A stretch of DNA of 64,000 bases from Rhizophagus irregularis (lineage: Eukaryota > Glomeromycota > Glomeromycetes > Glomerales > Glomeraceae), in the NCBI RefSeq assembly GCF_026210795.1, contig NC_089450.1:372001-436000 (forward strand), written 5' to 3'. This document shows, in pieces, positions 16,909 to 59,488 of this stretch. Below the pieces are notes generated by a model, which was given only the letters and a program-made list of their open reading frames with translations, had not been told where the DNA came from and did not search any database. The translations under genes and the position numbers were made by a program. Position 1 is the first letter of the stretch. Each line of letters opens with the position of its first letter.

Positions 16909-16912
16909 TTTT

Positions 16913-16930
16913 TGGTGCATGCTCACGAGA
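16913..16930 (+). other. Putative primer-binding site
   Basis: TGGTGCATGCTCACGAGA begins four bases inside the 5' LTR. A PBS normally begins TGG, complementary to a tRNA CCA end, and sits at this distance. I cannot name the tRNA. Confidence 0.5.
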
Positions 16931-17028
16931 AAGTAAAAGATTGTTGTCTTCATACAAGATCTAAATGAGAAATAAAAGAAAATTATATGAGAAAATGAAA
17001 GAAAATTTGTGAAAAAGATAAGAAAAAG

Positions 17029-17154
17029 ATGATATGAGAAATCATCAAAGAAGTAATAGATGATATGAGAAATCATCAAAGAAGTAATAGATGATATGAG
17101 AAATCATCAAAGAAATAATAGATGGTATGAGAAATCATCAAAGAAATAATAGAT
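17029..17154 (+). repeat. 31-bp tandem repeat in the retrotransposon leader, four copies
   Basis: Units with GATATGAGAAATCATCAAAG recur at 17031, 17062, 17093 and 17124 (period 31). Later copies carry G-to-A changes. They lie in the untranslated leader between PBS and gag. Confidence 0.85.
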
Positions 17155-18156: not shown

Positions 18157-18256
18157 ACTGGGAGAATCCCAGTATAAATAAGAGCACACTGGGAGGACCC
18201 AGTATAAATAAGCCTTTGTTGGTGATCATATTAGTCTGATACTGGGTGGCCCCAGT
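18157..18256 (+). other. Three CTGGG...CCCAG hairpins in the retrotransposon leader
   Basis: Three short inverted repeats, ACTGGGAGAATCCCAGT (18157-18173), ACTGGGAGGACCCAGT (18188-18203) and ACTGGGTGGCCCCAGT (18241-18256), are each followed directly by (T)ATAAATAA. The stems keep ACTGGG/CCCAGT while the loops vary. They lie about 400 bases before the gag start, where packaging or dimerisation signals of retroelements usually lie, but no function is shown. Confidence 0.7.
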
Positions 18257-18636
18257 TATAAATAATCCCTAGCTTTGATCACAGTTTATTTGCGCAAGAT
18301 ATGGAAATTTTATAAATAAAATCGCGATTATAGATTATATTATAGAATGTATAGAAAAATTATAGAATCAAAGCTGGAACTTTAAAAATATTAGAATTTA
18401 AATTGTGTTTTAAAAGAAATAAATGATAAAGTTGAAGAATGTTAAGTTATAAGTAATAGAATATTATATAATAAAAGATGTAATAAGAGAAATGTAATAA
18501 GAAGTCATGTACATGAGAATGTAAAGAAATAAAGATTGAAATAATAAATGAATAATTATATGAATAAAATATAAATAAATTAAAAATACGAAGTGAAATC
18601 ATTTTATAAGTGAATAAATAAATAAAATAAATTAAA

Positions 18637-20604
18637 ATGTCTGATATATATGATGAATCAGAAAAAGAAATAAGGAAAATATTAGATGAATATTTAAAGA
18701 AATTTGAAATTGAAGAAAGTGAAGAAGAAGTTGAAGAAGAAAATGATGATACAGATGATTCAGAAAAGATTGGAGAAATATTAGATCCAGAGAACATGAA
18801 ATTTGGGAAGAAGATATTAAAAGTTTCAATGAGAACGAATTTGAGAGTGAAAATGAAAATGTTATAAATACAGAAGGTTTTGGGTTAAGTCAAAATTCAG
18901 ATTCGAATAATTCATTAAATATTGAAGATTCTGATAGTGAAAGTGAAGTATCTGATTATAATTTACAAGATTTATTTCAAGAGAATATATTGTTAGATAT
19001 GGCAAATCAAGATCAAATAAAGAGAATAGTGGAAAATGCTATAGGACTCGCACCTAATACATTAGATAATGTATTAGGAGCAGGACAAACTTTAATAGAT
19101 AGAATTCAAACTGCAAGAATGGGAGGAATAGTAGGTATGCCAACTTTTAGTGGAAGAGAAGATGAAGATATTAACGATTGGATTAGACAATTTAAAGTAG
19201 CATTTACAGTAAGTGGAAGAACAGAAGGAAATGTTGGAGGAGGTATATGTAGTCAAAATAAAGCAAATGTAGCAATAACATGTTTAAGAGGAACCGCATT
19301 ACAATGGTATAATGAAGAAAAAGAAAGAGTAGCAGCTAATTTAGTAAACTGGTGTGATCATAATGACGATAGAAATTTGAAAAATAAATTAATTGATAGA
19401 TTCACTAGGGAAGATGTCAAAAGAAGAAAAATGATAGAATTGACAAGGATTAAACAAGAAAAAAATGAAAGTGTCGAAGAATATACCAGAAGGTTTAGAT
19501 CAATATTAAGAATTGCGACTAGAGGTCAAGTATTACATGAGTTATACCAAGTAAATTATTTTATTCAAGGATTAGAACCTATGTTAGGATATCAAGTTAG
19601 AAGAAGTAGTCCAGCGAATCTAAATGACGCAGTTAATATGGCAAGAAGGGAAGAAGAAGCTAGAGGTGAGTTATTAATGAAAACAATGAGTTTAGATATA
19701 GGACAAGTAGGATAAGAAAAGAATATAGAAGAAATTTTAAAAGAAGAAACGAATAAAAAAGAAGAAAATGAAATATATAAAAAAATGCAAAAGCCAGTTA
19801 ATGAAAAAGATATTGATGAAATAAGTAAAGCGTTAGAACAATTTAGAGCAGAAAAAATAGCTATGGGAGAAATGTTAAATGAAATAAAAAATCAACAAAG
19901 AAGAAATATAAATAGAAATATAAATACAAGAAATGTAAGAATTATGAGATGCTATGAATGCAATGAAGAAGGTCATATAAGACCAGAATGTCCACAAATA
20001 GGACGAAAGAATAATTATAGAACGCAAAATAATTTTAATAGGAATAATAATGAAAGAAGAAATAATAGTAATAATAGAAATATAAATTTAATGGACCATG
20101 AAAGATATTACGATAATAATAGAAATTATGATAATGGTAATTATTATAATAATTACGAAACATATAAGTATGAAAAAGAAATATTTCCAACTTTAAGAAG
20201 TGGTAGAAAATATGGAGGAGATTTAGATAATGAAGATATCGAAATGGAAATTGAAGATGTTCCAATACCACCAAAAAAAAGAATATGATATAAAAATGGA
20301 TATTGATGGTGAAAGAAAAGGAAGATTTTCTAATAAAGAAGATAGAGATAAAGCATACCAATCAAGAAGAAGACAAAATCAATGTGAAAGATGTGGATTA
20401 AGAGGTCATTTTATAAGAGAATGTCCAAATCCGGGAATGAAAAGAGGAAATAAAAATATTAGAGTAAGAGTTAATGTACCACCAGAAAAATATGTAATGG
20501 ATATGTATAATGAAAAAGCGAACATAACATATGGACAAATTTATAATGAAAATCCAAAATTTAGAAGAATAGCTAGAAATTATGATGAAGATGATAATGC
20601 ATGA
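18637..20604 (+). pseudogene. Retrotransposon gag, broken
   Basis: The ATG at 18637 starts an acidic N-terminus rich in Glu/Asp. After a one-base shift near 18795 the frame continues through the capsid-like region (FSGREDEDINDWIRQFK; GTALQWYNEEKE; EYTRRFR), typical of the Ty3/gypsy Gag core, to a TAA at 19713. The same frame resumes and holds a CCHC knuckle CYECNEEGHIRPEC (about 19950-19992). At an eight-A run (20273-20280) the frame must move by +1 to continue into a second knuckle CERCGLRGHFIREC, ending at TGA 20602. Gag normally forms the particle and binds RNA with the knuckles. The TAA and TGA could each come from a C-to-T change (CAA, CGA). The A-run shift may be a lesion or a programmed +1 site. 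Confidence 0.8.
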
Positions 20605-20614
20605 CTACACTCGG

Positions 20615-20858
20615 TAAGGTTGCTTGTCTAAACTTCTTCAAAATCCTACGATTAGTTTCGTCAAAATTTTACTATAGATTTATTATAGTTTCCGCAGAGT
20701 TTCGGCAGTTTCGGCATTTATAATAAGTTTCGGCAGTTTCGTCTTTCTCCAAAGTTTCACCAGTTTTTTAATATAACTTTAATATAGTTTCGGCAGAATT
20801 TCGCTTTTCGGCAAAACGCCATCTTGCCTAAACCCCTAGGTTTCAGCAAGCAACCTTA
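20615..20858 (-). mobile_element. 244-bp MITE, copy 1 (inside the retrotransposon)
   Basis: Starts TAAGGTTGCTTG and ends in its reverse complement, flanked by the 8-bp duplication ACACTCGG (20607-20614 and 20859-20866). Exactly 244 bp, and opposite in orientation to copies 2 and 3. The interior has many GCCGAAAC motifs. The 8-bp duplication fits the hAT superfamily. With its duplication the insertion adds 252 bp, a multiple of three, so the gag-pol frame resumes unchanged behind it. Confidence 0.93.
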
Positions 20859-20866
20859 ACACTCGG

Positions 20867-21412
20867 ACCAACAAATAAAAAGTGCAGATAATAAAAGTGA
20901 AACTAGAGCAATGAGAAGTAAAGTTATAATAAAAGGAAAATTAGTATCAATAATAATAGATTCAGGAGCATCAGTCAGTTTAATATCAGATAAATTAAGA
21001 AAAGAATTAAATATTCCAATAATAGAAAAGAGTGATATTAGATTTATAATAGCTAACGGAATAAGAGTAGCATCAAAAGGAAAAATAGAAATAACAATAG
21101 AAATAAATGAAAATACAGAAATGAAAATAATTATGGACGTAATAGAATCAGTAGAAAAAGAATTAATATTAGGAAATGATGTGTTAAGAAAAAAGAAAGG
21201 AATAATAGACTATAATGAAAAGACATTAATATTAAGAGAAGATGGAAAAGATATTGAAATACCAATAGAATATGAAAATAATGATGAAAATATTAATGAT
21301 AATAATGATAGTGATGATAGTGAAGATGAAGATAGTGAAAATGAATATGAAGAAACAAGTGAACGAGAAATATATTTAATAAATAATGAAGAAAAAGGAC
21401 ATATCATAGAGG
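20867..21412 (+). pseudogene. Retrotransposon aspartic protease region
   Basis: Open frame from behind MITE copy 1 to its junction with MITE copy 2. It contains IIDSGASVSLISDKL, the D-S-G-A catalytic loop of retropepsin proteases, then a hydrophobic ILGNDVLRKKKGIIDY segment matching the usual flap-to-C-terminal part, and an acidic Asp/Glu/Asn-rich linker. The enzyme would cut Gag-Pol. The frame is the same as the second zinc knuckle upstream, so protease was originally fused to it. It is separated from the reverse transcriptase by MITE copy 2 and a frameshift. Confidence 0.8.
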
Positions 21413-21656
21413 TAAGGTTGCTTGCCGAAACCTAGGGGTTTAGGCAAGATGGCATTTTGCCGAAAAGCGAAATTCTGCCGAAACTATATTAAAGTTATAT
21501 TAAAAAACTGACGAAACTTTGAAGAAAGGCGAAACTGCCGAAACTTATTATAAATGCCGAAACTGCCAAAACTCTGCCGAAACTATAATAAATCTATAGT
21601 AAAATTTTGACGAAACTAATCGTAGGATTTTGAGGAGGTTTAGACAAGCAACCTTA
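21413..21656 (+). mobile_element. 244-bp MITE, copy 2 (inside the retrotransposon)
   Basis: Ends TAAGGTTGCTTG / CAAGCAACCTTA with the 8-bp duplication CATAGAGG at 21405-21412 and 21657-21664. About six differences from copy 3 (28439-28682), nearly all transitions. It separates the protease and reverse transcriptase regions. Confidence 0.93.
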
Positions 21657-21664
21657 CATAGAGG

Positions 21665-23114
21665 AAAACTATTAGGTCTTGGCCATAAAAATGGAGAGAC
21701 ATTAAAGATGCACAAAGATTGGACAGACGAAATAAAATATAAAGATTTAGAGAAATTACAAAAGAAAGAATTAAAAGATTTAGTTAAAGAATATGAAGAT
21801 ATTTGTATATATGGAGACAAGAAAATAAGTAAAACAAATATAGTAAAATGCAATATAAGGTTAAAAGATGAAACACCAATAAATCAAAAAGCATATAGAG
21901 AAAGTACAGAAAATAGAGAAATAATAAAAAGAGAAATAGATAAAATGTTAAAAGAAGAAATAATACAAGAATCATGTAGTCCATGGTCGTCACCAGTAGT
22001 AATAGTAAATAAGAAGACAGGAGATAAAAGATTTTGTATAGATTTTAGAAAAATAAATCAAATGACGATAACAGACGCATATCCTTTGCCAAGAATAGAT
22101 GATTTATTAGAAAAATTTAGAGTAGCAAAATGGTTTACAACAATTGATTTAGCAAGTGGATATTATTGGCAAATAGAGATGGAAGAAGAAGATAAAGAAA
22201 AGACAGCATTTATTTGTAGTCAAGGATTATATGAATTTAATGTTATGCCGTTTGGATTAAAAAATGCACCAGCAATATTTCAAAGAACAATGAATAAAAT
22301 ATTTAAAGAATACTTAGATAAATTTATGAATGTATATATAGATGATATTATAATATATTCGAAAAATTGGAATGAACATTTACAACACATAAAAATAGTA
22401 TTAGAAGAGTTAAGAAAAGCGAATATGATGTTAAAGTTAAAGAAATGTGAATGGGCGAAAAGGAATGTAGAATATTTGGGACATATAGTAGGAACAGATG
22501 GGTTAAAACTGGATGATAAGAAAATAGAAAAGATTAAAAATTTAAAACCGCCAAAGAATATCAAACAAATAAGAGAAATAAATGGATTATGTTCATATTA
22601 TAGAAAATTTGTGAAAGGATATTCAAAGATAGTAAAACCAATAATGGAATTAACGAGAAAGAATGTTCCTTTTGTATGGACAGACAAACAACAAAAAGCA
22701 TTAGAAGAATTAAAAAAGAAATTAATAAATTATCCGATATTACAACATCTGAATTTTGAAAAAGAATTTATATTGATAACAGATGCATCAGGAGAAGGAT
22801 TAGGAGCTATATTAGAACAATTAAATGAAAATAATAGAGAAATAGTTATTAGTTATGTGAGTAGAAGTTTAGTAAATGCAGAAAAGAGGTATCCGATAAT
22901 AGAATTGGAATGTTTAGCAGTATTTTGGGGAATAAAATATTTTCATAAATATTTATTTGGAAGAAAATTTAAAGTAATAACAGATTATGCAGCATTAAAA
23001 GGATTTATAAGTACATCAAAAGTTCCTAAAGGAAGAAGAGGAAGATGGATGATGGAATTACAACAATATGATTTTGAAATAATAAATTATTCACCAATAA
23101 GTCGAGAAATATAG
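21665..23114 (+). pseudogene. Reverse transcriptase and RNase H
   Basis: A single open frame of about 480 codons. In order: SPWSSPVVIVNKKTGDKRF and DFRKINQMT (fingers/palm), TIDLASGYYWQIEM (first catalytic Asp), FGLKNAPAIFQ, YIDDIIIYS (the two catalytic Asp, 22335-22346), LGHIVGTDGL (thumb side), then RNase H with TDASGEGLGA, ELECLAVFW and TDYAALK giving three of its acidic residues. This copies RNA into DNA and removes the RNA strand. All key residues seen are intact. The frame ends at TAG 23112-23114, just where a Ty3/gypsy pol would run on to integrase; that junction is broken. No ATG of its own; it was read as part of a polyprotein. Confidence 0.9.
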
Positions 23115-24550
23115 TGAAACAGAAAGTTACGAGAGTTATTATGAAATTGTTGAAAGAATAATGAAGCGTAAAATTAAAAAAAAAAAAAAAAAAGATAAGT
23201 AAAGAATTTTATGAGAAAATATTAATAAGAGCTGCGAGGTAATAGGAAAGAATTAGAAAACAACCACGAGGAATACTTACAAAATTGAATTGATCTACAA
23301 TTAGTAAAATAATGGCGTGATCAAATGGATGAGATGAGCAACAGATTAGATAGATCGACAAATCAGCTGATTAATTAAAAGAGTGATTTTGTTGGACAGA
23401 GAAATATGAGACGAGAAACCTAAAATAAATAGAGTACGTTCAAGTCAGAAGGAGACATCTGTTTCGCATTCCATTTCGGCATAACCAAGATATTCCTTGA
23501 AACCCTTGGACTTCTGACAATCTTATAAGCAGTATCATTAAAACTGTAGCGGGACGTTTTCAGGCACTGAGCCAAACATATCTTATTATACTTTAGGGAC
23601 TATAAAAGTATACACGTATAATGTGCAGAGGTTTGGACTCTCCAAGTCCATCATAGAACCAGCTGTCTTTAGCGCTGCTTACCTAAGAAAAATTAAAATC
23701 ACAGCGTAGGAAGTTGAGATAAAATAGTATAGGAAAAATGGAGTTAAAAATAATAATAATAATAATAAAATAAAATAATAATAATAATAAAAATGAAAAT
23801 AATGTGGGAAGAAAAAGAGTGTGAATAAGTAGAATTTTATGGATATTTAAATGGAAGATAATACGCGTAAAACACGTAAAACGCGTAAAAATAAATTATT
23901 TTGAGGACAAAGAATTTATCGAGATAAATGATAAAATTAAGAGATCAGACATGAGTATTACGATAGAAAAATTATGAAGAAAAATTGCACAATATTAAGA
24001 AAATATAATTGGATAATAATAAAAATTAATTAGAAATAATAATATAAAACGTATGGTGACATGTGGAAAATTTCTGGAGTAAGAAGAATTATTTTTGAAA
24101 CAAGGAAAAAAATATTTTAAATAGTGAAACATAATAGATTGAGGGGCTAAAATAACAAATTAGGTTAATGGAATCTAAATATAGTGACCTACTAAAATTA
24201 GAGATCTATTTTTAGAAATGTTAATGAAAATGATCGATAAAATTAGTCGCTAAATTTAAGATGAATAACAAGCCTAAAAGATGAGAAAATAATGGTAGAA
24301 AATCAAACAAATAAATTGAGAGAAAATATAGGATATTTTTATGAAACATTAGAAGAAGAAGGCTAAATGAATATGAGAATATAAAGATTAAATTAATGAT
24401 AGGAAATGGAAATTAATATATATAATAATATATAATTACAAATTATCAGGATGTTTTAGAATGGATGTAACACTTTAATCTTTACAACACCTTAACCTTT
24501 TAAACATTTTAAATGGAGGAAGAAAGGTTTTATTCGCGTGTAGAGCAAAG
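23115..24550 (+). other. Non-coding segment in place of the integrase core
   Basis: Where the zinc-binding and DDE core of integrase should lie there is stop-filled sequence. About 23430-23710 is visibly less A+T-rich than the rest of the element and has no retroelement motif. An AAT microsatellite sits at about 23748-23800. The segment may be foreign sequence that replaced the integrase, or integrase decayed beyond recognition by eye. Confidence 0.55.
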
Positions 24551-24847
24551 AAGAATATTAAAAAAGCACAAGAACAACAAAAGAAATATCATGACAAAAT
24601 TGGAAAATGAAAACAAAACTTTCAAATAGGAGATAAAGTATTATATTTTAACGTGGCGAAATACAAAACACATACAGGAAAACTAGAAGAAAAATGGAAG
24701 GGACCATATTATATACATGAAGTAATAATAAATGAATCGTACAAAATTAAAGAATTAAATGGAAGAATTTTAAGAAGACCAGTAAATGGAGAATTATTAA
24801 AGGAATATTTTGATAGGGAAATATTTGAACCATATATAATAATATAA
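24551..24847 (+). pseudogene. Integrase C-terminal remnant (GPY/F-like)
   Basis: The frame reads AQEQQKKYHDKIG, a stop, then IGDKVLYF and EEKWKGPYYIHEVI ... SYKIKEL, the typical C-terminal end of Ty3/gypsy integrases including the GPY/F module that contacts DNA. One TGA (about 24608) interrupts it. It ends with FEPYIII shortly before the polypurine tract. The catalytic core upstream is missing. Confidence 0.75.
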
Positions 24848-24897
24848 TATGTTTGAGACCTGAATTCGATTCTTAATTTATGGGACATAAATTTTTC

Positions 24898-24911
24898 AAG
24901 AGGAGGATAAA
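24898..24911 (+). other. Polypurine tract
   Basis: AAGAGGAGGATAAA immediately precedes the 3' LTR, the normal position of the plus-strand primer in LTR elements. Confidence 0.75.
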
Positions 24912-25380
24912 TGTAATAACCGAAAATACAATAAAATAGAATAAGGATAAATAATTAGCCGAAGGATAAATAATTAACCGATGGGTAAATAATTAGCCAA
25001 TAAAATTATATTTATAGTTTAGTTTAGTGTAACGAGATAGTCATATGATAATAGATCTTCAAATTTTATTAGAAATATTAGAAATATTAGAAATATTTTT
25101 CTTAAAAATGTATAAATACAAGTGGATTTCGATAGGAAATTCGAGAGTTCAATTTTTGGAAAATAAAAATTTTAGTTCGCCCTTAATAATAAACTAACAT
25201 ATTCTTTTAGCCTTTTTCTTATGAGTAAAAAGTGCCACATTAATTATTTTTAATTAATGGTTTATTAATGTTTTGTAACTAATTTTTATTTTTAAACCAA
25301 GCATAGATATTATTCGAACTCAACACGTCAGTGGCAACATACGATATTTTATTTTAATATCCTATGGGCGGCATATCACA
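24912..25380 (+). repeat. 3' LTR
   Basis: 469 bp, TG...CA, followed by the target duplication ATGT (25381-25384). About 99 % identical to the 5' LTR. Confidence 0.93.
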
Positions 25381-31270: not shown

Positions 31271-31867
31271 ATGTCATTTTGCAGATCTCACCTAAGGCAG
31301 AGAAGAACATGTGAAGAACATAAAGCTGAGCTGAAAAAAGAGAACTATCATCTTTGTAGTGAATTGCAGACAAAAGTTGATATTAATCGCCAGAATGAGA
31401 AACGAATTAATCAACTGGAACGGGATTATATCCGATGTGAGCAAGAAATTCAATATTTCAATAGAGAGATAGAGCGCCTTGAAAATACTTTGAAAGAAAA
31501 GATAGTAGAGTTAAAATCTGAAATCTCTACTCTAAAAAGTCAGCTATATCAAGCTAGAAAAGATGTGCGAGATAAGGGAAAATATATTTCTAGTTTAGAA
31601 AAGCAGTTAGTAGAATCTGAGGAACAAGTTAAGAAATTGCGATATCAGATCAGAAGTATCTCATCACAAAAAAATTCGCCTGAACAAGGAAATTCTCCAG
31701 ACTTGTATAATTTTGATGATAATATGACTACAATCATAGAGTTAGCAAATGCTATAGATGGTTATGTGAATAATAGAGCAACAACTAGGGATATTCTTAT
31801 AGACCAAACACAGATTGAACAGATGTCATTGTTGCAAAATTTGCCTAGAATTTTTCTGGCAAATTGA
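31271..31867 (+). CDS. Coiled-coil protein, 198 aa
   Basis: The ATG at 31271 opens a 198-residue frame. Residues about 15-135 are a long amphipathic helix with heptad spacing (KEKIVELKSEISTLKSQLY and KYISSLEKQLVESEEQVKKL are typical), predicted to be a coiled coil. Residues 136-198 are Ser/Asn-rich and then hydrophobic. No membrane segment or enzyme motif. It lies just downstream of a broken frame that also ends in a Lys/Glu-rich helix, and could be the 3' part of the same old gene. The stop is followed within 130 bp by an AT-rich tandem repeat. Expression and function unknown. Confidence 0.45.
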   Translation: MSFCRSHLRQRRTCEEHKAELKKENYHLCSELQTKVDINRQNEKRINQLERDYIRCEQEIQYFNREIERLENTLKEKIVELKSEISTLKSQLYQARKDVRDKGKYISSLEKQLVESEEQVKKLRYQIRSISSQKNSPEQGNSPDLYNFDDNMTTIIELANAIDGYVNNRATTRDILIDQTQIEQMSLLQNLPRIFLAN

Positions 31868-31989
31868 GAATTATCCCAGTAAATTGGATAAATTGGGTTA
31901 CAATTTTGGGATAATAGAGAACTTACAATTTGGCAAATTTTATCAAAATGGCGTCAATCCTACAGAATTCCTAATTCAAATGTTGAGAA

Positions 31990-32690
31990 ATTTTTCAGTA
32001 AATTATCATTAAATTGTGGGAAATTTTAGGTAAATTTTTAGTAATGTTATATAAACGTATATAATGTAAATTGTGTAAATTTTAGGCAAATTTTTAGTAA
32101 TTTTATGCAAACGTAATGAAAATTGTGGTGAATTTAGTCAAAATTTTAGTAATTTTATGTAAACATAATGCAAATTATAGTGAATTTAATCAAATTTTTA
32201 GTAATTTTATGTATTTATATAAACGTAATGCAAATTGTGTAAATTTTAGTCAAATTTTTAGTAATTTTATGTAAACGTAATGCAAATTGTGATGAATTTA
32301 GTCAAATTTTTAATAATTTTATGCAAACGTAATGCAAATTGTAGTAAATTGTAGTGTATTTTTAGTAATGTTATGTAAATTATTGAAATTTAGGTGAATT
32401 TTTCAGCAATGTTATGCAAATGTAATGTAAATTGTGGTGAATTTTGCATTTTTTCAGTAAATGTTGCTAAATTTTTGAATAATTTAGTGAAATTTAAGAT
32501 AATTTTGGACAATTGAGTGAAAATGTTTTGCCAATTTTGGACAATTGAGCATAAACAGTATAAATGCAATATTTTCGGAGATAATTTAGTGAAATTTTGC
32601 AAAAATTTTGGACAATTGAGTGAAATTTTGCAATAATTTTGGACAATTGAGTGAAATTTAGTAATAATTTTAAACAATTTAGTGCAAATA
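31990..32690. repeat. Degenerate tandem AT repeat
   Basis: About 12 irregular copies built from GTAAATTTTAGTCAAATTTT, TAGTAATTTTATGTAAAC and GTAATGCAAATTGTG words (period about 54 bp). After 32400 they grade into a second set built from TTTTGGACAATTGAGTGAAA. Open frames across it are by-products of the repeat. Confidence 0.75.
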
Positions 32691-32756
32691 CCATGACAAT
32701 TTAAAACACTGGTTTAATAATTTTACATAATTTATTACAATTTTATTTATTAATAA

Positions 32757-32789
32757 GGCCGTTCCAACAAATCGTCTCGTTTAACATCA
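32757..32789 (+). repeat. Left terminal inverted repeat of the TAA element
   Basis: 33 bp starting GGCCGTTCCAACAAAT and ending TTTAACATCA. Four mismatches to the right end, three of them transitions. Confidence 0.88.
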
Positions 32790-32931
32790 ACCCCCCTCAT
32801 TATTTCAAAAAATTCAGATTTAAATGTACATTTTGTATATCACGTGATTTTATAAAAATATGATAATAAAGATAAAATAACAATCATTTTACTTAACAAA
32901 TTATTTATTAAAAGATTATATAATACAAAAA

Positions 32932-35900
32932 TTATTCTCTTTTCCTTTTTCTTGTTAATTCACCAACTTTTTTCTTACCCCAAGTATGAAAAGAATGACC
33001 CGAAAGTTGACAATTAGAACAAAGTGGATATACAGATTGATATCCATGAAGTAAATCGTCAGTTGCCTCCACCAATGAATTATTTTTACCACAATAATAA
33101 CAAATAGGAGGTTTTTTTAGGCGATTTGAATAATAACCACTTTCAATTGGAGAATCACAGCTAAGAGATTGACGAATAAAAACAATACCTTTCAGCTCAT
33201 GTAAAGGTGGCATCCATTCTTCAATTCCACAAGTAAAATCATTATCATTTATTTTGAGCTGTAATGTGGATATCTGCTCTTTTTTTAAAGCACTCATACT
33301 ATAAATGCATCAAATTTTTCCACAAAAATCACATTCAACGAATTCGCGAACACGATTATTATTGAAAATGCCCTGGGGTAAATTATCAGCTTCTAGTTGT
33401 CCTGCTTTACTTGGACGAAAGTTTTCAGATGTTTGAGTTTCATATATACTTGAAAAATCCTTATAATGATTAGAATCAGCTAAAATAAAAACGCCCAAAA
33501 ACATAATTAGAAATTTGAGCACTTTATGCAAAAAGGTTGTATAATTCTTACCAATAGATGGTTCAGGATCAGGCAAAAAATGCAATTCATCAAATACTTC
33601 AATTGGTAATTCAACTGGTAAACAGATAGTACATTCACTATTATTGCATTTCTTAATCTGCAGAAATTAGAGTTTTGTGATAAATTTCGAATACAATGAA
33701 TATATATAAGTGCATTTTACTCTATTTGACATACCTGAAATGAATATTGTCTAATTTGACAATGCGTATCAATAAATTCCTTTAATTTATGAAATTTTCT
33801 TAATTCTACTAGCGTTGTATCATTAATTGTAAGCTGACTTTCAGCTGTTAATATAGACTATTATAATATTAATGATTAACAAAAATAAATTTAAGCAAAT
33901 ATTAATATAAAAAATACCTCAAATAAAGAATCAATTTCAGTTTCTATGGCAGGAGAAGCGATTTTGAATTTTAAATCATGTAAAGAAAGTCGTGAAGTAC
34001 GATTTTCAAGGAATTCTTGAGTAATTTTAATTGATTTAATAAGCTCTTCTTTTAAATGTGAATTAGAATTAGCTCCTTCACGGATTTCAGATAAAGTTTT
34101 AAGCTTTTCAAAAGCTTGTTCCGATAATCCACTCATATCTTCTCGCTTCAAAGCAACACCTTGCAAAGCAAGATTTAATATTGACATTATACGTTCAGCT
34201 GGATTGGCCCAACTGTGGTAAGGAGCAGTTCGTACAGCAGCTAAGAAATCAAAGTTACCTTTTAAAAACAAGGCTATCAATGATATTTGAACAGATCCAT
34301 ATATGCATCGGTGATCTGGACCACCATCAGTATATAAAAGTAAAATTTTAGGTTTGTTAATATTATCTTGATATTGAATAGAATAATTATTATAGAATTC
34401 TGTTGCATGTCGTATAGCAGAACTTGGTTGGAAAATTGTATCTTTATATGCTATATATACTTGACCCTGGTAAAATGAATCTGATATACTATTTGGAATG
34501 TCGAACAAATAAAGATGCCGAAGGGGTCGAAGATAATTTTGTAAAATCGTGATCGCAAGAATTAAGTATTCCATCTATAGTAGTTAATGCTGATTTATTT
34601 CTCACTCCTGTTGAAGTGAAGAACTGTGGATTCTCCAATGCGAACTTTGACAAGCCATATCAGCACAAATTAATGCCGTATACTCTTTAAATTTAATAGC
34701 AAATTCACGTAAATATCTCCAAAGTGCAGAACAGTAATGTGAATCAATATGAGACTTGCGTATTTGACGAGCTTGAATCATATATCGAATTTGGAACCTG
34801 CCTGTATACCGATTTTCTGAAAATTCTGTTTTTGGCCAAAATTGTAATCGCACCCATTCAGTTGAAGGTATTTCAATATCATTTGGTATGGTGCCATATT
34901 TATTTTCTAATCGTTCAATTATGATTTGCACCAGATCCTTAACTGAGATGGCAATTGGCATATATAAAGTTGAGGTATGTCGTCGATCATGCACTGCAGG
35001 CGTAACCTTTTTAAAATTTGAGATGATCTTGATATAAATTATATAAGATATAAATACCAAAAATAGTATTTAAATTAATAATCATTACCTCATTAAAGTA
35101 ATCTTGCATTTCGTTCCAAAAGACATCAAATTTTGTGCCTTTTTCATTAATAATCTTACGAAGATCTATAATAATATCAGGATCTTGGGTATCTAGCATC
35201 AATTTTATCCGTTCATGTGTTTTCTTATTGATTTCATTATCTGGTGTTGATACATCTCCTGTTAAATCTTGATAAAGTACTTGCAGAATTGAGCGTGATG
35301 CTTTAACTATTAAAGAATACTATAAAAAGGTTGGTGTATATTTAGTATTTTCAATATTTTCAAAAGAAATATTTTAACTGAAATATAAACAAAAAAAAAA
35401 AAAAGAAAAAAACCTTATTTATCACATTTTTTCGCATTTGTCTTGTACAATAGATTGGGATTTGGTCATATGCTGCAGAAATATTTTTTGCTTCTTTTGT
35501 CTTGTCACATTTATCCAAAGAAGGAATTTTCCATACAAAATTTAATGTACCGAGATAATTGCCATGATAATAACGATATAGCGTGAAGGATACATCAGCA
35601 CAAATATTTTGAAAAAAGAGATATATATTTTGTGGCTTGGGAGGAAGCAAATGATCTATATTTAGAAGATCATAATCATTGGATTCACGAAGAAGCTGTG
35701 CTAAAAACTCATATTGAGATGGATATAAGTCAACAGCTTCAATATCCTCAACTGTAATATCCATCTCGCCCATTTCTTACAGGAACTAGACTCGTATGTA
35801 TAGTACGCATTCTATTATTAACCCCTTGAAGATAGTTGGCATATTCTTGAGCTATTTTTATCAGATCATCAATATCTTTAATTACTTCTTCCCAATGTAA

Positions 35901-36601
35901 TAGGCGTGTCCAAGGTTGTTGAATAGATAAAATTAAAGCTTTAACAAATGACTCAAGTTTTTCTCGTGATATTTCAATTTTTTTATGCTTCGTAGTATCA
36001 TGATAGAGATTATAATGACTTTCAGAAGCATATACAGGAAGTTTGGCTATAATTTTTGGTAGTTTCAAGCCGCGTTTTTCCAATTTGCCAAGATGAGGAT
36101 CCAAATACCATACTAAATCGGTAACTCTGCGGATAAAAGAATGCCCAATAGTTAAATGATTATCATTCAGCCATCCCAGTTTCCTTTCTTGCAAAATTTT
36201 TAAAAAATCATTATAGAGCAATCATTACGAAATTGGGAGTTGTAAAGTGGTGGAAGTTTTTTTAGGCGTTGTTGTGTCATCATGAAATTAAATGCTAAAG
36301 ATCCTTCATTAGATAACTCATCGGGAATTAATATACTATGAGATATTGTAAAACGTACATGCTGCGCCTTCAATTGAAAACATGCTTCTAAATTTTCGGT
36401 AAGACCATTTAATATAGGATGCCAAGCTGAAGAATCATTACATTGAAGATCAACTTTTACCAGCTTATCTTCTAAAAAGAGTTCATTTGAAAGTGCTTCT
36501 TTTAATAAATCTTCAAAATTTCTGGACTCTTTAATACCAACCACTGCTGATTTTACTAAAGATATGCCATTTTCATAGGCTGTTACAAATAAATACAACA
36601 T
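32932..36601 (-). pseudogene. Multi-exon DDE transposase-like gene, decayed
   Basis: Blocks read in order on the minus strand from the ATG at 36601. They include an N-terminal region (36601-36200), a helical part after a frameshift (36221-35748), another shift to 35773-35400, an intron to about 35320, and an intron at about 35089-35010. The core follows: CAD in LICAD (about 34645), TDGGPDHR (about 34315) and NPAERIMS (about 34195), which I read as the three acidic D-D-E residues. The C-terminal part, after three GT-AG introns (one at 33658-33734), has Cys pairs CDFCGK, CYYCGK and CSNC, a zinc-ribbon-like end, then KRKRE. At least four frameshifts (near 36215, 35765, 34655 and 34640) and a TGA (33308) break it. 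I recall similar unnamed proteins in fungi and aquatic animals. The role is inferred from DDE layout and position between TIRs. Confidence 0.68.
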
Positions 36602-36899
36602 TTGATGTATATAATTTCCAAAAAAAGTATCGTCAGTTCTGCAGTTTTATTTACTGATACTACACGAAAGAAAAAGAAAAGTTTATCGAACAAAGAAAAA
36701 AGAAAAAGAAAATACGATTTGTTCACATGTTAATAATATAAATTAAGTGTTGATACAAGTGGTCGATTGTGATACAATATCGCAAACTTAACGTTACAAT
36801 CATTACATCTAATAAAATAACGTGACTTTATATATGTGTTTAAAATTTAATATGTACAAAATTTTACCCCCCGCCCCCCTCTATTTTTTTCATGTCATG

Positions 36900-36932
36900 T
36901 GATGTTAAATGAAACTATTTGTTGGAGCGGCC
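36900..36932 (-). repeat. Right terminal inverted repeat of the TAA element
   Basis: Reverse complement starts GGCCGCTCCAACAAAT and ends TTTAACATCA, followed outward by the duplicated TAA. Confidence 0.88.
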
Positions 36933-37060
36933 TAAATGTACAATTATTATTATTTAACGATAATCTATATTCATCAGATACCCAATGATCCATAGATAAT
37001 CTGCACCTCTAATTCATTTATATATCAAATATCCGATGTTGAAGTAGAAGTTGGTGAAAA

Positions 37061-39231
37061 CCTAAAAAAGAAAAAAAAATGAAACATTAATATACGTTTT
37101 GTTGAAAAAAATTAAAATAAAAAACATTTTGAAGTTATATACCTTCAAAATGTTAAATTCCATATGTTCAAGGACAAACCTAAGAAAAGAAAAAAAATGA
37201 AACATTAATATACGTTTTATTGAAAAAATAAAAATAAAAAAAGATATTTCAAAGTATAATATACCTTCGAAATATTGAATTCCGGTATATTCAAGAAGCC
37301 ATCGAATCTAAAAAAAAAAAATAAATGAAACGTTAATAAACATTTTGTTAAAAAAGAAAATAAACAACAAACATTTCGAAGGTATAACAAACATTTTGAA
37401 GTATACCTTTAAAATGTTTCTCCGCTCCATTTCAGTTTTCCCTTTCTCTTTCCTTTTCCCTTTTTCCTTTTGTCTTCACCTTTCCCTTTTTCCTTTAACT
37501 TACAAAAAAAAAAATAAATGAAACTTTAAACAATGTTTCGTTACATAACAAAAATCCAATAATTTTGAAGTTCTAATACCTTCGAAATGCTGAAACGGTA
37601 CCCTGGAACCTAAAAAATGAAAACTGAAATGTTAGTAAACGTTTCATTGTAAATAAAACAAATAAATTTCGAAGGTTCTTATATTTACCTTCAAAATTCT
37701 TCTGTCCAGAAGGCAACCAGAAAATAAACTACAAAAAAAAAGATAAACGAAACATTAGTAAACATTTACTAATATTTCATTAAACAAAAAAAAAATTAAA
37801 ATTGATTTTAAATACCTTCAAAATCTCGTCTTGGAGGCGAAGCCATGGATCTATAAAAAAAACCAAAATGTTAGTTAACGTTTCGTAGAAAAAAATTATT
37901 TAATAAATAAATACAAAAAAAACCAAAAATATTACCTTTTAACCAAAGTCCAGGTCGTAATTTTGTCTGGTATTCCTACAAAAAGGGAGAAAAGAAACGT
38001 CAGTTAACGTTTTTTAAAAAAAAATAAATAAAAATAAAGTTTGGCAACATAATATTGCGAAACTTACCAGTTTGTTTCAATTTCCATTATCCAAATGTTC
38101 AGAACCTACAAAAAAGTAAAAGAAACGTATATTAGTATCGTTTCTTTAAAAAAAAAAATAATTAAAAATTTAAGTTTTACAACACAATATTGCGAAATTT
38201 ACCAGTTTGTTTCGATTTCCATTATTCAAATGTCCGGAACCTACAAAAAAGTAAAAGAAACGTATGTTAGTATCGTTTCTTTAAAAAAAATAATTAAAAA
38301 TTTAAGTTTCGCAACACAATGTTGCAAAACTCACTGGTTCGTTTTGATTTTTATTATTCAAACGTCCAGAACCTACAAAAAAGTAAAAGAAACATACGTT
38401 AGTATCGTTTCTTAACAAAAACATAATTAAAATTAAGTTTCACAACAATTGTTGCGAAACTTACCAGTTCATTTCGAGTTTCAAACATCTGAAATCTACA
38501 AAAAAAAGAAAAAAATGTTAATTAACGTTTCTTTTAATAAAAAAAATTAATAAATTAAGTTTCGCAACGATTTGTTATAAAACTCACCAGTTCGTTTCAT
38601 CCAAATATCTGGAATCTACAAAAAGAAGGAAAGAAACATTAGGTAACGTTTCTTTTAATAAAAAAAAAAATTTAACAAAAAAAAAGAAAATATTACTTTT
38701 CTCTCAAAGTTTGGGTCGTAATTTCGTTCAGCGTTCTTACAAAAAGAAGAAAAGAAATGTTAGAAACGTTTTCTAAAAGAAATTAAAAAAAGTAAGTTTT
38801 GAACACAAAACTTACCATTTCACTTTCCGAAGTTGAAGACCTACACAAAAGAAAAATAGAAAACGTTAGAAACGTTTCCTTACAAAAAAAAATTAAAAAA
38901 AAAATTTTTTAAAAAAGTTTTGAAGCAAACGTTTCGAAACTTACCATTTTCGTTTCCTCATTTCCTAAATCAAAAATACCAAAAGACCTAAAAAAAATAA
39001 AGGATTGTTAAAAACGATCCTTATAAAAGTAAAAAAAAAATTATTTTAAAGTTTCGAAGCAAAACGCTTCAAAACTTACCATAATTTCAGTTCGTTTCCC
39101 AAAGTCAAAACATCAAAAATCCTACAAAAAAGAAAGAAAGGAAACATTAGAAACGTTTCCTTACAACAAAGAATTAAAAAAAAAAATTTAAATTTAAAAA
39201 AGTTTCAAAGCGGTTTGCTTCAAAACTTACC
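37061..39231 (-). other. Tandem array of micro-exon-like blocks and structured introns
   Basis: On the minus strand about 18 blocks of 25-92 bp are each preceded by a T-rich tract ending TAG/AAG and followed by GTAAGT, GTGAGT or GTATxT. Blocks (high to low): ending 39231; 39121-39080; 38987-38945; 38840-38816; 38735-38697; 38615-38588; 38495-38465; 38372-38335; 38240-38203; 38105-38068; 37975-37936; 37850-37816; 37728-37689; 37609-37580; 37498-37407; 37307-37265; 37179-37143; from 37061. The 70-105-bp introns carry two stems: one at the donor, and one near the acceptor whose loop holds CTAAC/CTAAT, a branch-point word. Blocks are themselves repeats (five share TTTGRATAATGG-like cores). Splicing blocks 3-8 leaves a 52-codon ATG frame (38961 to 38354); most other joins hit stops. 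It may be a micro-exon gene, a non-coding spliced RNA or an intron-making repeat. Confidence 0.55.
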
Positions 39232-39240
39232 ATTGTTTTT

Positions 39241-39434
39241 CTGAAAGACAGTTCTGAAAAGGGAAAAGGGAATGGGAAAGAAATGGAAGAAAAAAAGGAA
39301 GGGAAAGGGCGGAGGAAGAGGAAGGGAGAAGAGGAGAAAAAAGAGGAAAGGGGAAGGTGGGAGAACGAAGGAAGTGAAGGTGAGAGAAAAAGGGAAGGGG
39401 AAGGGCGAAAGAAAGAAGAGATAAAGGCCGTGAG
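39241..39434 (+). promoter_or_regulatory. 190-bp homopurine/homopyrimidine tract
   Basis: The plus strand is almost only A and G for about 190 bp (GGGAAAGG, GAGGAAGGGAG words), with fewer than a dozen interruptions by C or T. On the minus strand this is a C/T-rich tract directly 5' of the first block of the micro-exon array. Pyrimidine-rich tracts are common before fungal transcription starts, and mirror-repeat purine tracts can form triplexes. The regulatory role is inference. Confidence 0.45.
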
Positions 39435-39480
39435 AAAAAAAAAATTAAGCTTTTACTAAAAAAGCTTAATTTTTTTTTTT
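39434..39480. terminator. AT-rich perfect hairpin
   Basis: A-run plus ATTAAGCTTTT, a four-base loop ACTA, then AAAAAGCTTAAT plus a T-run: a stem of about 20 bp. It marks the outer border of the purine tract. The shape is that of an intrinsic terminator, but in a eukaryote it is more likely a foldback or a tiny-element end. Confidence 0.4.
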
Positions 39481-39929
39481 CGTTATACTGCAGCTGAAGC
39501 TACAGTAATTATTAAGTAATATCACATGACGCACATGATATATAATTTTATATAAATAGGAGCTTTTCCCCGCCCTGGAATTTTTTTTTTATTTTAATAA
39601 TTTTAAATAGATGTATATATATGCTTATATATATATATACTGTATATATATCTATTAACTAATACTTTACGAAAAGCCCCTACTCTGTAAACAGGTAAAG
39701 GCCATAAAGTACCTATAGGAGGAGAGCCATTGCTGCTTCCTCCGCCTGTTTATAGTGACAAAAAGAGGGAGTCTTCAGTAGTAAGGTTTAGTACTAAATT
39801 AAACATCACAACACATCGTGTTGATACATTGTTTATATTAACAATGTGTTTAATGTTAAATAATTCATTTAAAATATAAATATACAAATAAATAAAATAA
39901 AAATTAACAATTTTAATGTAATTAAGTGT
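39481..39929. other. Intergenic with small inverted repeats
   Basis: TAGGAGCTTTTC (about 39559) and its near reverse complement GAAAAGCCCCTA (about 39673) bracket about 120 bp, and GTAAACAGG/CCTGTTTATAG form another stem at 39690-39755. Possibly a miniature element; no target duplication seen. No gene. Confidence 0.35.
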
Positions 39930-40760
39930 AATGTTACATTATCCAGTGTAATTGTAATATTTTTTTGTATTTTTTAGTGCAATTCCACATTTTTTAGTGC
40001 AATTCCGCATTTTTTAATGCAATTCCACATTTTCTAGCATAATGTTACATTTTCCAGTATAACGCGAAATTTTCTAAAAAATATAATAATTGTGGTACTT
40101 TTTAGTATAATGCTACATCATCTAGTGTAATTGTAGTATTTTTTAGTGCAATGCCGCATAATTTAGTATAGTGCTACATTTTTTAGTATAATTTAATATA
40201 ATGTGGAATTTTCCAAAAAATGTGATAATTGTAATGCTTTTTAGTGTAATTTGGTGAAATGTTATATTTTTCAGTGTAATGCCATATTATTGAGCATTTT
40301 CAAAAAAAAAATGTAACATTTTAATATTCTGACGAAAGTGAAACATTTGACATAAAATTTGCTGAAAATATGCAACATTTGACAAAAAATATAGAATTTT
40401 CATAAAAAAATGCACCATTTGCTAGGAAATCAGAATATTTGACAAAATTTGATTTTAATTGACAATGTTATAACAATTTTATGAAATGTTGTTACAATGA
40501 TATCACATTGACCATTTGCAAAAAAATTGGAACATTTGACAAAAAAAAAGCAAATTTTAATTTTAATTGACAATGTTATAACAATTTTATAAAATGTTAT
40601 TACATTTGAGGCAAAATGTGGAATTTTCATAAAAATGCACCATTTGCAAGAAAATTAGAACATTTGACAAAAAAAAAGCAAAATTTGATTTAATTGACAA
40701 TGTTATAACAATGTTACGAAATGTTACATTTGAAATATATATAATGTAGCATTTTCCCAA
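39930..40760. repeat. Two blended AT-rich tandem arrays
   Basis: To about 40300: a 20-30-bp unit built on TTTTTTAGTGCAATTCCACA with TGTAATG variants, more than ten copies. From about 40400: a longer unit of about 110 bp with AATTGACAATGTTATAACAA and GAACATTTGACAAAAAA, about three copies. No gene. Confidence 0.7.
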
Positions 40761-40928
40761 ATTTTCATAAAATTTATAAAATTTGCTAAATCGAACAATG
40801 TTGTAATAATGCTATTCCAAAAAATTGCTCAGCGTAATGCAGCATTTTCCACAATTTCCACCATTTTCCAGGAAAATGGGGAATTTGCATTTTTTGAATT
40901 TTGGACAATGGTGCCCCTTCGACCTGTG

Positions 40929-52857: not shown

Positions 52858-54779
52858 TTAACCATATAATTTAACCTTCCACCAATAATATAATATTAAA
52901 GCAATAGAAAGAAAACCATAACTTATAAATATAGGACTCAAATTTTGAATCCTACATTTTTGTGGGTCAAGAAATTGACAGTCGTCAGTTTTGGTGACAA
53001 AGGAAAATGCCAATATAAATAATCCTGCCAATATAAAAAGTCCTGCTAAAGGCAATGGAACTTTAAATTGATTTTCATTATCACGATTTCTTCGAATTAT
53101 TAATAAACCTATACCAGTAGCAACATAAAAAATCCAATAACTATACATGGCGAATTTTGAAAATAAAGTAAAAGTCGTTATAGTAAAACTAGAACCAATA
53201 AAGAATATAATTAATGAACACCAAATGAATTGTGCTAATAAAGCATTAATAGGCGTATCTAAATTATTATTCCAAGTTTTTAGTTCTTTCGAATATTTTG
53301 GGAAAAAATCCGATCTTGCAGCTGCAACAATAACTCTTGATCCGTTCCATACTTCTGATGCTGCTGTGCCAATTACAGAAAGTACGACAAGAGCGGTGAA
53401 AATTCTAACCACTACTTCAGATCCACCAAATAATTGGCGAAAGAATGTTGCGGCTATAGTCTCATCGGAGTCCGTTGAATCTATTAAATTTTCTGGTACA
53501 ACCGAGATAAACGCAATATTTACAAGAAGGTCTATAAAATAATTTAGAATTTTAATATATTATAATATTAAAGTTAGAATAAATTGTAGTATACATACAG
53601 ACTACGATAACAATTCCAACGCTTATGATGTTGCTGTATAAGAGTTTTTTTTCCGGCCTGCGGAATTCATCAAGTGAATCTATAACGTAGATATTGTATC
53701 AGTTATCAATAAAATTTTTTAAAATATATGTATACTATTTACTCACAATTTAAGCTGTTCCATCCATCATAACTAAACATAATCTATAAAATAAAATGAC
53801 TGTTAAAAAAAAAATTCACCAAAAAAAGGACATATATGTTTAATATATTTACCAATAGAACGGAACTAGAATAAGCTGTAATATCTGTATTTCCCTCTAA
53901 TGATTTTTTCCAATTTAATGAACTATCTGGATTTGTAATCAATTTACCAATTCCAGCTATTGCGATAATTGAATATGTGACCAGCTTAATGACAGCTAAT
54001 GATTGATTTATATAAATCGCCCATCTATTACTAAGCATATGATATAACGTTATTATGAATAAAAAGGAAACAGCAATTAACTTTAAAATCCTGAAAAAAA
54101 TAAAATTTTAGATTAGAAATTTTTAGATTACTGCAAGTTATCGTCATTAACAATAAATTTTTCTTACCAAAATGGAGAAAAAGCAAGTTGCCACCCAGTT
54201 GTAACTTGCTTAATATCCTTATCGTATCGGGAACCATTAATAGTATACCAAAAATACTGTGCTGCAGATTGTAAAACTGCACACAAAATTCCTGGTTGAA
54301 TCGCACTAAGTTATAAAATATTTTTAATATTTTTATAAATTCAATTGAAACGGAATTGTATAAAATACTTACAAAATATACATGAAGCTAAAAAGATAGC
54401 TCATCATGTATTCCGGATAAGGATAAGCAGTTTGCAAATACTTTGTTTCCCCTCCACTTATTTTATGTATAACACCAAGTTCAACGTAGGATAAAGAACC
54501 AGCCATAGCAACAATACCGCAAAGTGACCATAATAATAATACAATCCCAGGAGATTTTACCGCCTTCCAAATAATTCCTGGGGAAGTAACGATTCCTGAC
54601 CCAATTACGCTATTTACATTCATACCAATACCATAAACAACGCCTAAAAGCTTGGTCGAATCATTATTCCTACTAAAAATTATTGATTGTGCTGGTGATG
54701 AAGGTGCTGGTGACGAAGGTGTTTGGGATGTTTCATCATTAATTTCACGATCGGACATGGTATCAAGAGTTTCAGGCAT
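52858..54779 (-). CDS. L-type amino acid transporter (LAT/APC family), gene B
   Basis: A 524-residue permease from six exons: 54779-54373, 54305-54168, 54090-53853, 53783-53747, 53679-53599 and 53531-52858; all introns are GT-AG and phases match. The N-tail of about 44 residues is Ser/Pro-rich. GSGI lies at 60-63, followed by SLSYVELG and SGGETKYL; the 37-bp exon encodes the YDGWN segment; the last exon has GSRVIVAAARSDFFPKYSKE and ends in WWKVKLYG. Compared with gene A, the last two introns are absent, their positions being continuous coding sequence in the long last exon, and the C-tail is shorter. Intact throughout. It should work as gene A; the substrate is not inferable. It is the upstream-most member (in window coordinates) of a three-gene cluster. 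Confidence 0.9.
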
Positions 54780-55289
54780 CTTTTCATAAAGAAAATATAC
54801 TTATATATATATTTTTAAAAAATTTTTTTTTTTCAAAAATTGTTTGATATAAAAATCATTTAGCCATTTATCAATAGCAAAATATTTATTTACTCTGTAT
54901 TCGCAAACAAAAAAAAACAAGGCAAACTCTATCTCTTTAAGAGAGGTTATATTTAGACATCAATATGAACTGTACTGTCTGTACGTAAGAAAAAAAAAAA
55001 CAAAAAAGAAAAAAAGAACTCCCTTATGTTTTTCTAATTAGGGTATTACTTTATATAATTTCCCAATTAAGGTTTTCATTGTCTAAAATTCAGTATAACC
55101 TTTTGACTTCATCACTATACTAATTTAGTTAGTCATTGAAAGAAAAATGACACGAGGATAATAAAAATAGAGGTAACCGTCAACCATCATAAACACCAAA
55201 TTTAGCATTTTATTTATTTATCGTATTACAGATATAAATAAATATAATACATTTAATTATTTCTTATCAATTTTTATATTATTACATTC

Positions 55290-55800
55290 TGTTTTCCTGT
55301 AATATAAAGAGACCAAAACATTAAAGCATTAAGAAGAAATACGTAACTAATAAGGAATGAACATGAATCATGTTTTGAACTTTCTTTGGATATTTATTGT
55401 TAACGACAAAAGAAAATGTCAGCGTATACAATATAATCCTGCCAAATAACATAACGTAAAAGTTGGGATGAATATAATTTGATATTTTGAGAAAAAAAAA
55501 ACTGATCTTTATGCTGCAACAATAACTCTTGATCCGTGCTGCCGTGCCCATTACAAGTAGTATGATAAGGCTGTAAGTTCTCAAACGAATACTTCGGATT
55601 CACCAAATAATTTGTTTCTCCATCACCAATTTCAAAGTAAGATAAGAACCCAGACATAGTAATAATTCCACCAATTGTCCATAATAATATGTTTTCAAAG
55701 AGATTTTTTGCCGCCTTCTAAATAATTCTTGGTTTAGTAACCCGATTATATTGTTTATCTTTCATACCAATACGCCAATACCATAAACAAATAATTGGCC
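55290..55800 (-). pseudogene. LAT transporter relic with internal deletion
   Basis: Between genes B and C the minus strand shows decayed LAT sequence. A piece of the first helix (VYGIG) is followed by LLWTIGGIITMSGFLSYFEIG and GGETNYL, which in intact genes ends exon 1. This passes directly into residues matching the late exons (LIILLVMGTAARI, then a piece matching the GSRVIVAAA region in another frame), and finally GRIILYTLTFSFVVN, matching FILAFSFV of gene B. The middle of the protein (exons 2-5) is missing, with frameshifts at each join. A dead tandem copy, nearer to B and C than to D. Confidence 0.8.
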
Positions 55801-57424
55801 AAAGTTTTAATTATAGGAAATTCCGAAAAGAAAGATCTATAGTATATCGTATCTGTATTGACCTGAATGTTGTACGAAATTTCATCTATTTTGATTTTCT
55901 TGCAAATAGTGCAACTTAATAATTTCGAAAATAAATTTGTGTAAAATTGTAAAATCTAACTTATTTTGTTAGCGTGATCTTCGCTGTTCTTAATTTAGTA
56001 TACTCAATTATCATTGATAATTGTCTTTTAAATAATATGATTCTTTTGCCAGTTACTTTTTTCATTGTTTATTATAATATAAAAAATAAAAAGAAATCTC
56101 AAATTTAACTTATAACCTGAGTTAATATTTTCTGGCCGAGAAAAATGCTTGATCGACACTTGTGTGAGATGTTTATCGCGTGACTCGTATGTATTTTTTC
56201 TACACGATTTAATCTTATTTTCACGGAACGAGAATGTTCGGTTCATATGCTAACTTATTTTTTACATAATATGATAATCACAAATTTTAAAGTGGTTATA
56301 CTAGTACAGCTTATTTGTAAATTCATGCAAAGAACTCATTCAAAATATACGCCATCAGTACCACTTTTCATATTAAACGTGTAACAACTTTTCAAATATG
56401 AGTAACGTAAGATGAAAAAAATTTGAAATTGCAATGCCACGTGATTTATACTAACGTTGACGGCAAGTATCATCATGCCTTGTCTTGGTTATCCTCTCTG
56501 AGCTTGCCGATTGGTGTTTTAGATCATAGTCTTTAGTTATATTATACATATCATACATATTAAGGGACTTCTCTTTAAAACAGAGTTTTTTTTCCCATAT
56601 TTTTATTTTGGCGGAGAACATATTTGTGTTTTGGTTAGAGAACATATTTATGTTTTGGTTGGTTCGTAAGATATCACTTTTTTTTTTTTGAAACATCTTA
56701 AAAGTAAACGAGATGGCTTAAACAAATTTTTTCGTTTTAGTATATATTATAAGGTAAAATATTTAATTGGAGATACATAAATGGTTTATATTTCTAACAA
56801 TGAATTCTCGTATTGATTTTCAAAATTTATTTTTAAACCGAAGGCTTAAATCTTCTGTGACACCTTGTGTTTTAGAATTTCAGAATAATCAATTTAAAAT
56901 CACCTTTTCTAGTTTAAAGTTCTGAGAGAATTCAAAAAAATTCCGAAACTTTAGTAAAAATATTATATAATAAGGTTTAAAAAATTTTGCCAAGAATTTA
57001 TTTGAAACACATAAGGATTAAGGACTATTAATCCCGGTTGGATAATAGATTTTCCATAACCCGATCATATTTAGGATTGTTTGTAGTTGATAATTGTGAA
57101 TTGTCAAAAAAAAAAAAAATATTATTCATGTGCAAATATAGAATCCTATCCCGTTTGATAAACAAGATCTCTTTCACTTGTGAATTAATTAAGATTTTAT
57201 TTAAGATTTAACAAAGAATTTTTATATTAATTTTAATTTAATGCACACAAATGATTTGCGATAATTTTAAATTACGTGAATTTTTGATATTCTGTGTATC
57301 AAAAATGTCGAACACAATAAAATTACTACTAAATTTCAGGTTAATTACTGGTGTTATAGAATTTATTTAACAAAAATACACTTTAAGGTTACTAAGTTGT
57401 TATATAAAATAATTTACATATGTA

Positions 57425-57463
<39 letters not shown>

Positions 57464-57512
57464 AAGTATTATATTTATAATAATAATAAACAAATAAAAT
57501 AAAATAATTTAA
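55801..57512. other. Intergenic within the LAT cluster
   Basis: No gene seen. Less A+T-extreme at 56030-56700, where short minus-strand frames (56028-56246, 56451-56696) lack any family signal. A TA microsatellite lies at about 57430-57462. Confidence 0.45.

Positions 57513-59456: not shown

Positions 59457-59488
<32 letters not shown>

Follow-up and report, generated by a model that had tools for sequence, protein, structure and literature searches.

The minus strand of positions 37061-39231 in the window (the whole 64-kb stretch of Rhizophagus irregularis DNA analysed here) holds an array of 17 GT-AG introns and 18 blocks (16 internal, the first and the last), and its flanking ends and the layout of its sibling copies indicate that this array forms the central part of a non-autonomous CACTA-type transposon, which in this copy is interrupted by a nested element (Table 1). 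The explanation we favour, with moderate confidence, is a transposon-borne, spliced and mostly non-coding array whose structured introns would be the kept part, and which would serve a non-autonomous CACTA-type (tnp2) family as its transcription unit. The preliminary description of this DNA had proposed repeated exon-intron units kept for splicing, a reading supported by the order and strand of the signals, by covarying stems and by sibling gene models joined at such borders; the missing piece of its interpretation is that the array is carried as cargo of a CACTA-type element.

Table 1. Predicted features of the array and its carrier element, in window positions
Feature	Position	Strand	Basis or remark
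Non-autonomous CACTA-type transposon copy, array sense minus, interrupted by nested insertion	31809..40928	-	both ends, adjacency
Promoter-side inverted end	40906..40928 (C22:412906-412928)	-	pattern search; right end TTCGACCTGTG
Other inverted end	31809..31831 (C22:403809-403831)	+	pattern search; left end CACAGATTGAA, 2 mismatches to family pattern
Nested insertion, separate from array element	32757..36932		inverted ends GGCCGYTCCAACAAAT, target duplication TAA
Pyrimidine-rich leader, directly upstream of array	39260..39450, approximate	-	sequence
Array, 17 introns and 16 internal blocks	37062..39230	-	intron model, folding, sequence
Array introns 1-6	39230-39122, 39079-38988, 38944-38841, 38815-38736, 38696-38616, 38587-38496	-	
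Array introns 7-12	38464-38373, 38334-38241, 38202-38106, 38067-37976, 37935-37851, 37815-37729	-	
Array introns 13-17	37688-37610, 37579-37499, 37406-37308, 37264-37180, 37142-37062	-	
Upper half: donor at foot of intronic hairpin GTRAGTTTY..RAAACTT	37976..39230	-	8 of first 10 introns
Lower half: stem of exon end and intron start, donor in loop	37062..37815	-	sequence, folding
Purine-rich 92-nt block	37407..37498	-	sequence
Last block and 3' end region	36960..37061, approximate	-	adjoins 32756 in other copies

Introns of the window copy are 79-109 nt long and its internal blocks 25-92 nt, the same block sizes as first reported; the earlier count of about 18 micro-exon-like blocks on the minus strand also stands, and the spacing given for them, 80-140 bp, is replaced by a donor-to-donor distance of 109-173 nt. 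A fixed intron model consisting of donor, branch-like motif, pyrimidine tract and AG, in that order, finds 14 introns on the minus strand of the array and 0 on the plus strand, and 500 dinucleotide shuffles of the array yield 0.38 on average and never more than 2 under the same model, which agrees with the claim that the units all run the same way. No Rfam family matches anywhere in the whole window at gathering scores, and a known RNA family was on this ground rejected as the identity of the array.

Most upper-half introns open with GTRAGTTTY, followed by a variable stem and RAAACTT, the exceptions being intron 5 (GTAATA) and intron 9 (GTAAAT). When the window introns are folded, the stem with the donor in its loop that had been described at 37155-37124 is present, and both halves have another hairpin with a CTAAC-like motif located in its loop or beside it, after which come the pyrimidine tract and AG. 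Folded with 14 nt of exon each and compared with 100 shuffles each, 13 of the 17 window introns fall below z = -2 (mean z -2.7, with the ends of introns 4 and 14 slightly off), and the other 4 show no unusual fold.

Comparison across copies extends this structural evidence. A first exon/intron parser drew 352 introns from 31 array sequences (L014, L015 and L023 were left out of all parsing), and an anchored donor hairpin fits 164 of them. Native arms of the 58 distinct inner donor stems of at least 12 nt (of 65 distinct) are 91.4% paired, against 74.3% for swapped arms (maximum 81.7% in 1000). In an alignment of 43 donor hairpins (those of 31 nt among 73 distinct), in which the outer pairs are fixed by the search pattern itself, 95.9% of cells are paired versus 88.8% after shuffling and double changes fill 64 cells versus 28.8, neither value being matched in 500 shuffles; in these hairpins the pairs with double changes and the pair types do not exceed shuffles (171/500 and 463/500 as high, respectively). 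An alignment of 41 introns (of 80 listed) that covers both helices gives 11 pairs with double changes (shuffled mean 7.1; 2/500) and 58 double-change cells (shuffled mean 18.5; 0/500), with 24/500 shuffles as high in pair types, and such covariation counts overstate the number of independent events because units and copies are related. The branch helix in this alignment is 90.5% paired, and RNAalifold predicts the donor helix only. Branch-site stems of at least 6 bp occur in 315 of the 352 introns versus 184 of 352 shuffled segments. The covariation of stem bases between units that had been noticed in the window is found across copies, in donor and branch hairpins alike.

A search of the whole genome with the array (146,748,485 bases, 32 contigs) returned at least 163 matches, and 20 loci of about 10 kb, some with one side truncated, were taken for comparison. 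The stretches homologous to window 31809-32756 and 36933-40928 adjoin within 40 bases in 20/20 of these loci, and the window copy is therefore an element some 5 kb long that a 4.2-kb insertion splits just downstream of the array. That insertion has several open frames on the minus strand, six of which were scanned against Pfam with no match, and looks like a DNA transposon of another family. With at most 3 mismatches, the end patterns of the array family (CACAGGTCGAA / TTCGACCTGTG) occur at 84 left and 77 right places genome-wide, and at 0 in a reversed-pattern control. An identical 3-base target duplication flanks 15 of the 16 loci with both ends; the window copy has no matching duplication (AAA / CTA). 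Target site duplications of 3 bases are typical of CACTA elements, and we take the combination of CACAG ends with such duplications to fit the CACTA superfamily.

Three further loci with ends 8-9 kb apart were examined. Two of them, L029 and L030, have both family ends and lack the array; a frame in L030 matches the tnp2 transposase domain PF02992 (E 8.3e-10), and in the databases the L030 protein is most closely matched by proteins of R. irregularis or by unnamed metagenome proteins; two L029 frames scanned against Pfam gave no match. The third, L031, belongs to the array elements and contains one more insertion (L031:3554-4501), in which there is a DUF659 match, as in hAT-like elements. At least 155 PF02992 matches are present in the genome, so other tnp2 families exist too. 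The idea that the element hides in host introns was rejected: among 15 empty sites tested, 7 lie in open stretches of at least 100 aa, and with 5 antisense and 2 sense to the array these show no sense bias.

Palindromic stems repeated inside a transposon, in units whose number varies between copies, could also belong to a tandem repeat with no RNA role, the palindromes acting as DNA signals such as transposase binding sites. Yet L029 and L030, the transposase side of the family, are without the array; donor, branch motif, pyrimidine tract and AG follow one order on one strand; and gene models splice at these sites. We regard a repeat of DNA signals as very improbable.

Two other features share the window with the transposon. 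An LTR retrotransposon occupies 16471-25097, with repeated end segments near 16.5 and 24.9 kb; its frames 18759-19712 and 21603-23111 match gag and reverse transcriptase. A row of amino acid permease gene pieces lies on the minus strand at 52861-62660 and 1844-4194; three frames tested match PF13520, and the others are alike by eye.

Within the arrays, neighbouring exons are copies of each other, as are the introns, and unit number varies between copies. The widest comparison available is with L041, a distant subfamily that shares the ends, the leader and the plan of the unit. Measured by the best-matching unit among seven other copies (second parser), L041 exons have an identity of 0.53 (shuffled 0.49) and L041 introns one of 0.70 (shuffled 0.58); the first parser gives the same result, with exons near the shuffle level and introns not. 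Among the seven copies without L041, identities are 0.72 for exons (shuffled 0.53) and 0.80 for introns (shuffled 0.58), and exons have more non-CpG transitions (0.055, introns 0.032), gap columns (0.183, introns 0.130) and transversions (0.054, introns 0.049), the first parser agreeing in direction with a wider transversion gap (0.059 vs 0.040). Introns are more alike than exons, clearly so for the distant L041 and modestly among closer copies, and part of this difference may come from the T-rich spacer and from the choice of best matches. In young subfamilies splice sites are not clearly better conserved than the remaining intron. The first parser misplaced some acceptors, which produced exons of 73-79 nt in several copies, and a few donors are double-counted by the second, which reports 19 units for the window array where there are 17; the conclusions from both agree. 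Many differences between copies in the L028 and L009 array groups fall in CpG (by eye, with CpG-type transitions counted), which cytosine methylation of the elements would fit.

Joining all blocks of the window copy reproduces the 52-codon ATG frame reported earlier. Across copies, the joined exons stay open longer than 95% of shuffles in 0 of 31 cases (second parser), and the first parser finds 1 of 27 copies with open length above shuffles, at 0.02; one fixed protein was rejected for want of any such coding excess in the exon joins. A looser coding hypothesis is that the transposon carries a micro-exon protein family, from which combinatorial splicing would make many short variable proteins. 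Sibling arrays are indeed annotated in public R. irregularis sets as short hypothetical proteins, a matter of consequence for annotation in itself. A 67-aa exon join from L028 used as query matched two annotated proteins, and one of these as query in turn retrieved 30 R. irregularis proteins that resemble exon joins (up to E = 10; 25 at E < 0.01). Nine of the 30 map letter for letter, with GT-AG introns only (3-15 each), onto seven copies; none of these nine lies on the window copy, and the other 21 have no exact map onto the array copies examined. At L024, OCT59_002281 comprises two isoforms under one locus tag with 3' exons in common. An R. irregularis DAOM197198 assembly of 32 scaffolds, probably the one searched here, was annotated with Illumina and Nanopore RNA, and since its pipeline, as outlined in PMC10234402, refines gene models with long reads, the two L024 isoforms hint at transcript evidence.

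Several observations tell against a protein family of this kind. Exon lengths modulo 3 (0/1/2) are distributed 130/102/146 with the second parser and 85/67/72 with the first, the open lengths just given are at shuffle level with the one exception named, and exons change faster than introns. L022 has two annotations that differ in frame upstream. By the rule set here, a strong donor together with a pyrimidine-rich acceptor is found in 69 of 92 model introns; the other 23 lack this combination, and several of these cut inside exons and avoid stops. On these grounds we hold a transposon-borne protein family to be unlikely, and the non-coding or alternatively spliced RNA that the preliminary description had listed as an alternative is favoured over one fixed protein by the frames, the model introns and the absent excess of open length. 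From the sequence and the models placed on it, splicing of array RNA with a variable choice of exons appears supported.

One sibling locus departs from the common plan: at L023:3982-4781 a truncated array is fused to a repeated coiled-coil-like coding piece, and the annotated protein P0134 spans this fusion through array introns. Capture of a host exon was considered here and rejected, because the 314-nt piece has 48 genome matches and the array is truncated, which makes fusion by rearrangement likelier. A link of the arrays to SP7 effectors was likewise dropped, the portion of PMC11333574 available to us giving none.

Outside the array family, the distribution of the hairpins bears on whether the introns themselves could be mobile, the array then being a pile-up of insertions, as an introner-like origin would have it. 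Structured introns of this sort resemble fungal introner-like elements with inverted repeats or stable folds (PMC8469720, in the part accessible to us), and the hairpin-intron pattern has 252 exact places genome-wide (0 in the control), of which 100 were listed and compared by hand, 32 of these lying outside elements with known ends. Against this, all 152 donor hairpins in the 21 sequences examined fall within elements and 0 in the remaining 141,523 bases, with no host gene carrying such an intron in that sequence, and neighbouring exons have been copied along with the introns, which fits duplication of whole units. Independent mobility of the introns is quite improbable in our estimate; the introner-like alternative of the preliminary description is not supported as stated, and the 32 listed places outside known ends leave room for a wider spread.

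Some of the places outside known ends are tandem. A second array, at L010:6623-9450 (C15:2394122-2396979), lies just outside the CACTA-type element of that locus and has roughly 25 units as counted by eye, whose exons are short and whose hairpins hold the donor in the loop; its relationship to the lower half of the array at 37061-39231 is distant. As a query this second array (family B) has 199 genome matches; apart from its own locus, six places match at 90-93% across 1.7-2.0 kb. At C15:2394096, C15:2243172 and C29:1027036, no more than about 1 kb separates an array-transposon end from a family B array. Elsewhere outside known ends, three pairs of hairpin-intron places are spaced 726-732 bases apart (C1:3299303, C2:983772 and C10:2309752), perhaps a further repeat family with such introns.

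Returning to the spliced, mostly non-coding array, we propose that transcription would start at the pyrimidine-rich leader, which is present in 20/20 copies tested (92-98% pyrimidine over 90 nt) and resembles the start regions of highly transcribed fungal genes. The array RNA would then lose introns in varying combinations and, meeting the spliceosome at many introns, would pass as an ordinary multi-intron transcript. Exon content would be nearly free and any coding incidental, and arrays would grow and shrink by duplicating whole units. The frame is not kept and the splice signals and hairpins are, from which we infer that amplifying elements keep the array for splicing or introns that are useful to them, and not for a protein. 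Pairing of the leader with the purine-rich block, which would loop out the array, is no part of this proposal: a purine tract is found in 17/20 copies tested (the purine exon is absent from L041-L043), and compared with the mean for 20 shuffled leaders the duplex is stronger in 11/17 copies, by 1 to 14 kcal/mol, and weaker in 6/17, the window copy included.

A bolder and distinctly tentative extension is that a selfish element with a structured-intron array as cargo might profit from splicing, for example by passing RNA surveillance, with exons as replaceable spacers, and that such arrays might have reached several repeat families of this genome. The usual view of non-autonomous DNA transposons is that their ends are all they need. 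If it is true that the introns of such a transposon are better kept than its exons, selection on a genomic parasite would act on splicing itself. With so many copies at hand, the family offers natural material for testing what RNA structure does near donor and branch sites, and whether mobile DNA in fungi is shielded by its intron content.

Searches of the open-access literature found no paper that deals with these arrays by title or abstract. Like non-autonomous derivatives of CACTA (EnSpm/CMC) transposons with tnp2, the element has CACAG.. inverted ends, 3-base duplications (15/16) and a partner that shares these ends and matches PF02992; unlike them, it has a body made of an array of structured introns and micro-exons. 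To our knowledge no such body is known in the CACTA superfamily, and none was found in the literature searched either. Schistosome MEGs and aphid bicycle genes have many tiny exons per gene, are lineage-specific and vary in exon use. The array resembles them in its many tiny exons, its restriction to a lineage and its models with variable exon use, and differs in that its exon lengths have no preference for multiples of 3 and its frame differs between annotations of one copy. In soybean, the CACTA element Tgm-Express1 has internal exons joined in many ways by alternative splicing, and according to the available part of PMC1947982 these are five captured host gene fragments, whereas the exons of the array are copies of one another for which no host source was found. 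Introns let mobile or foreign DNA escape HUSH silencing in mammals, as the accessible text of PMC8770142 describes; this is a mammalian pathway, and for the fungal array it would be a precedent by analogy. The fungal introner-like elements and the symmetrical stwintrons are likewise near-identical introns that have inverted repeats or fold stably, and their symmetry, by the account in the consulted portion of PMC8469720, is not needed for their splicing; these sit singly in host genes, whereas the introns of the array have been duplicated together with their exons inside a transposon.
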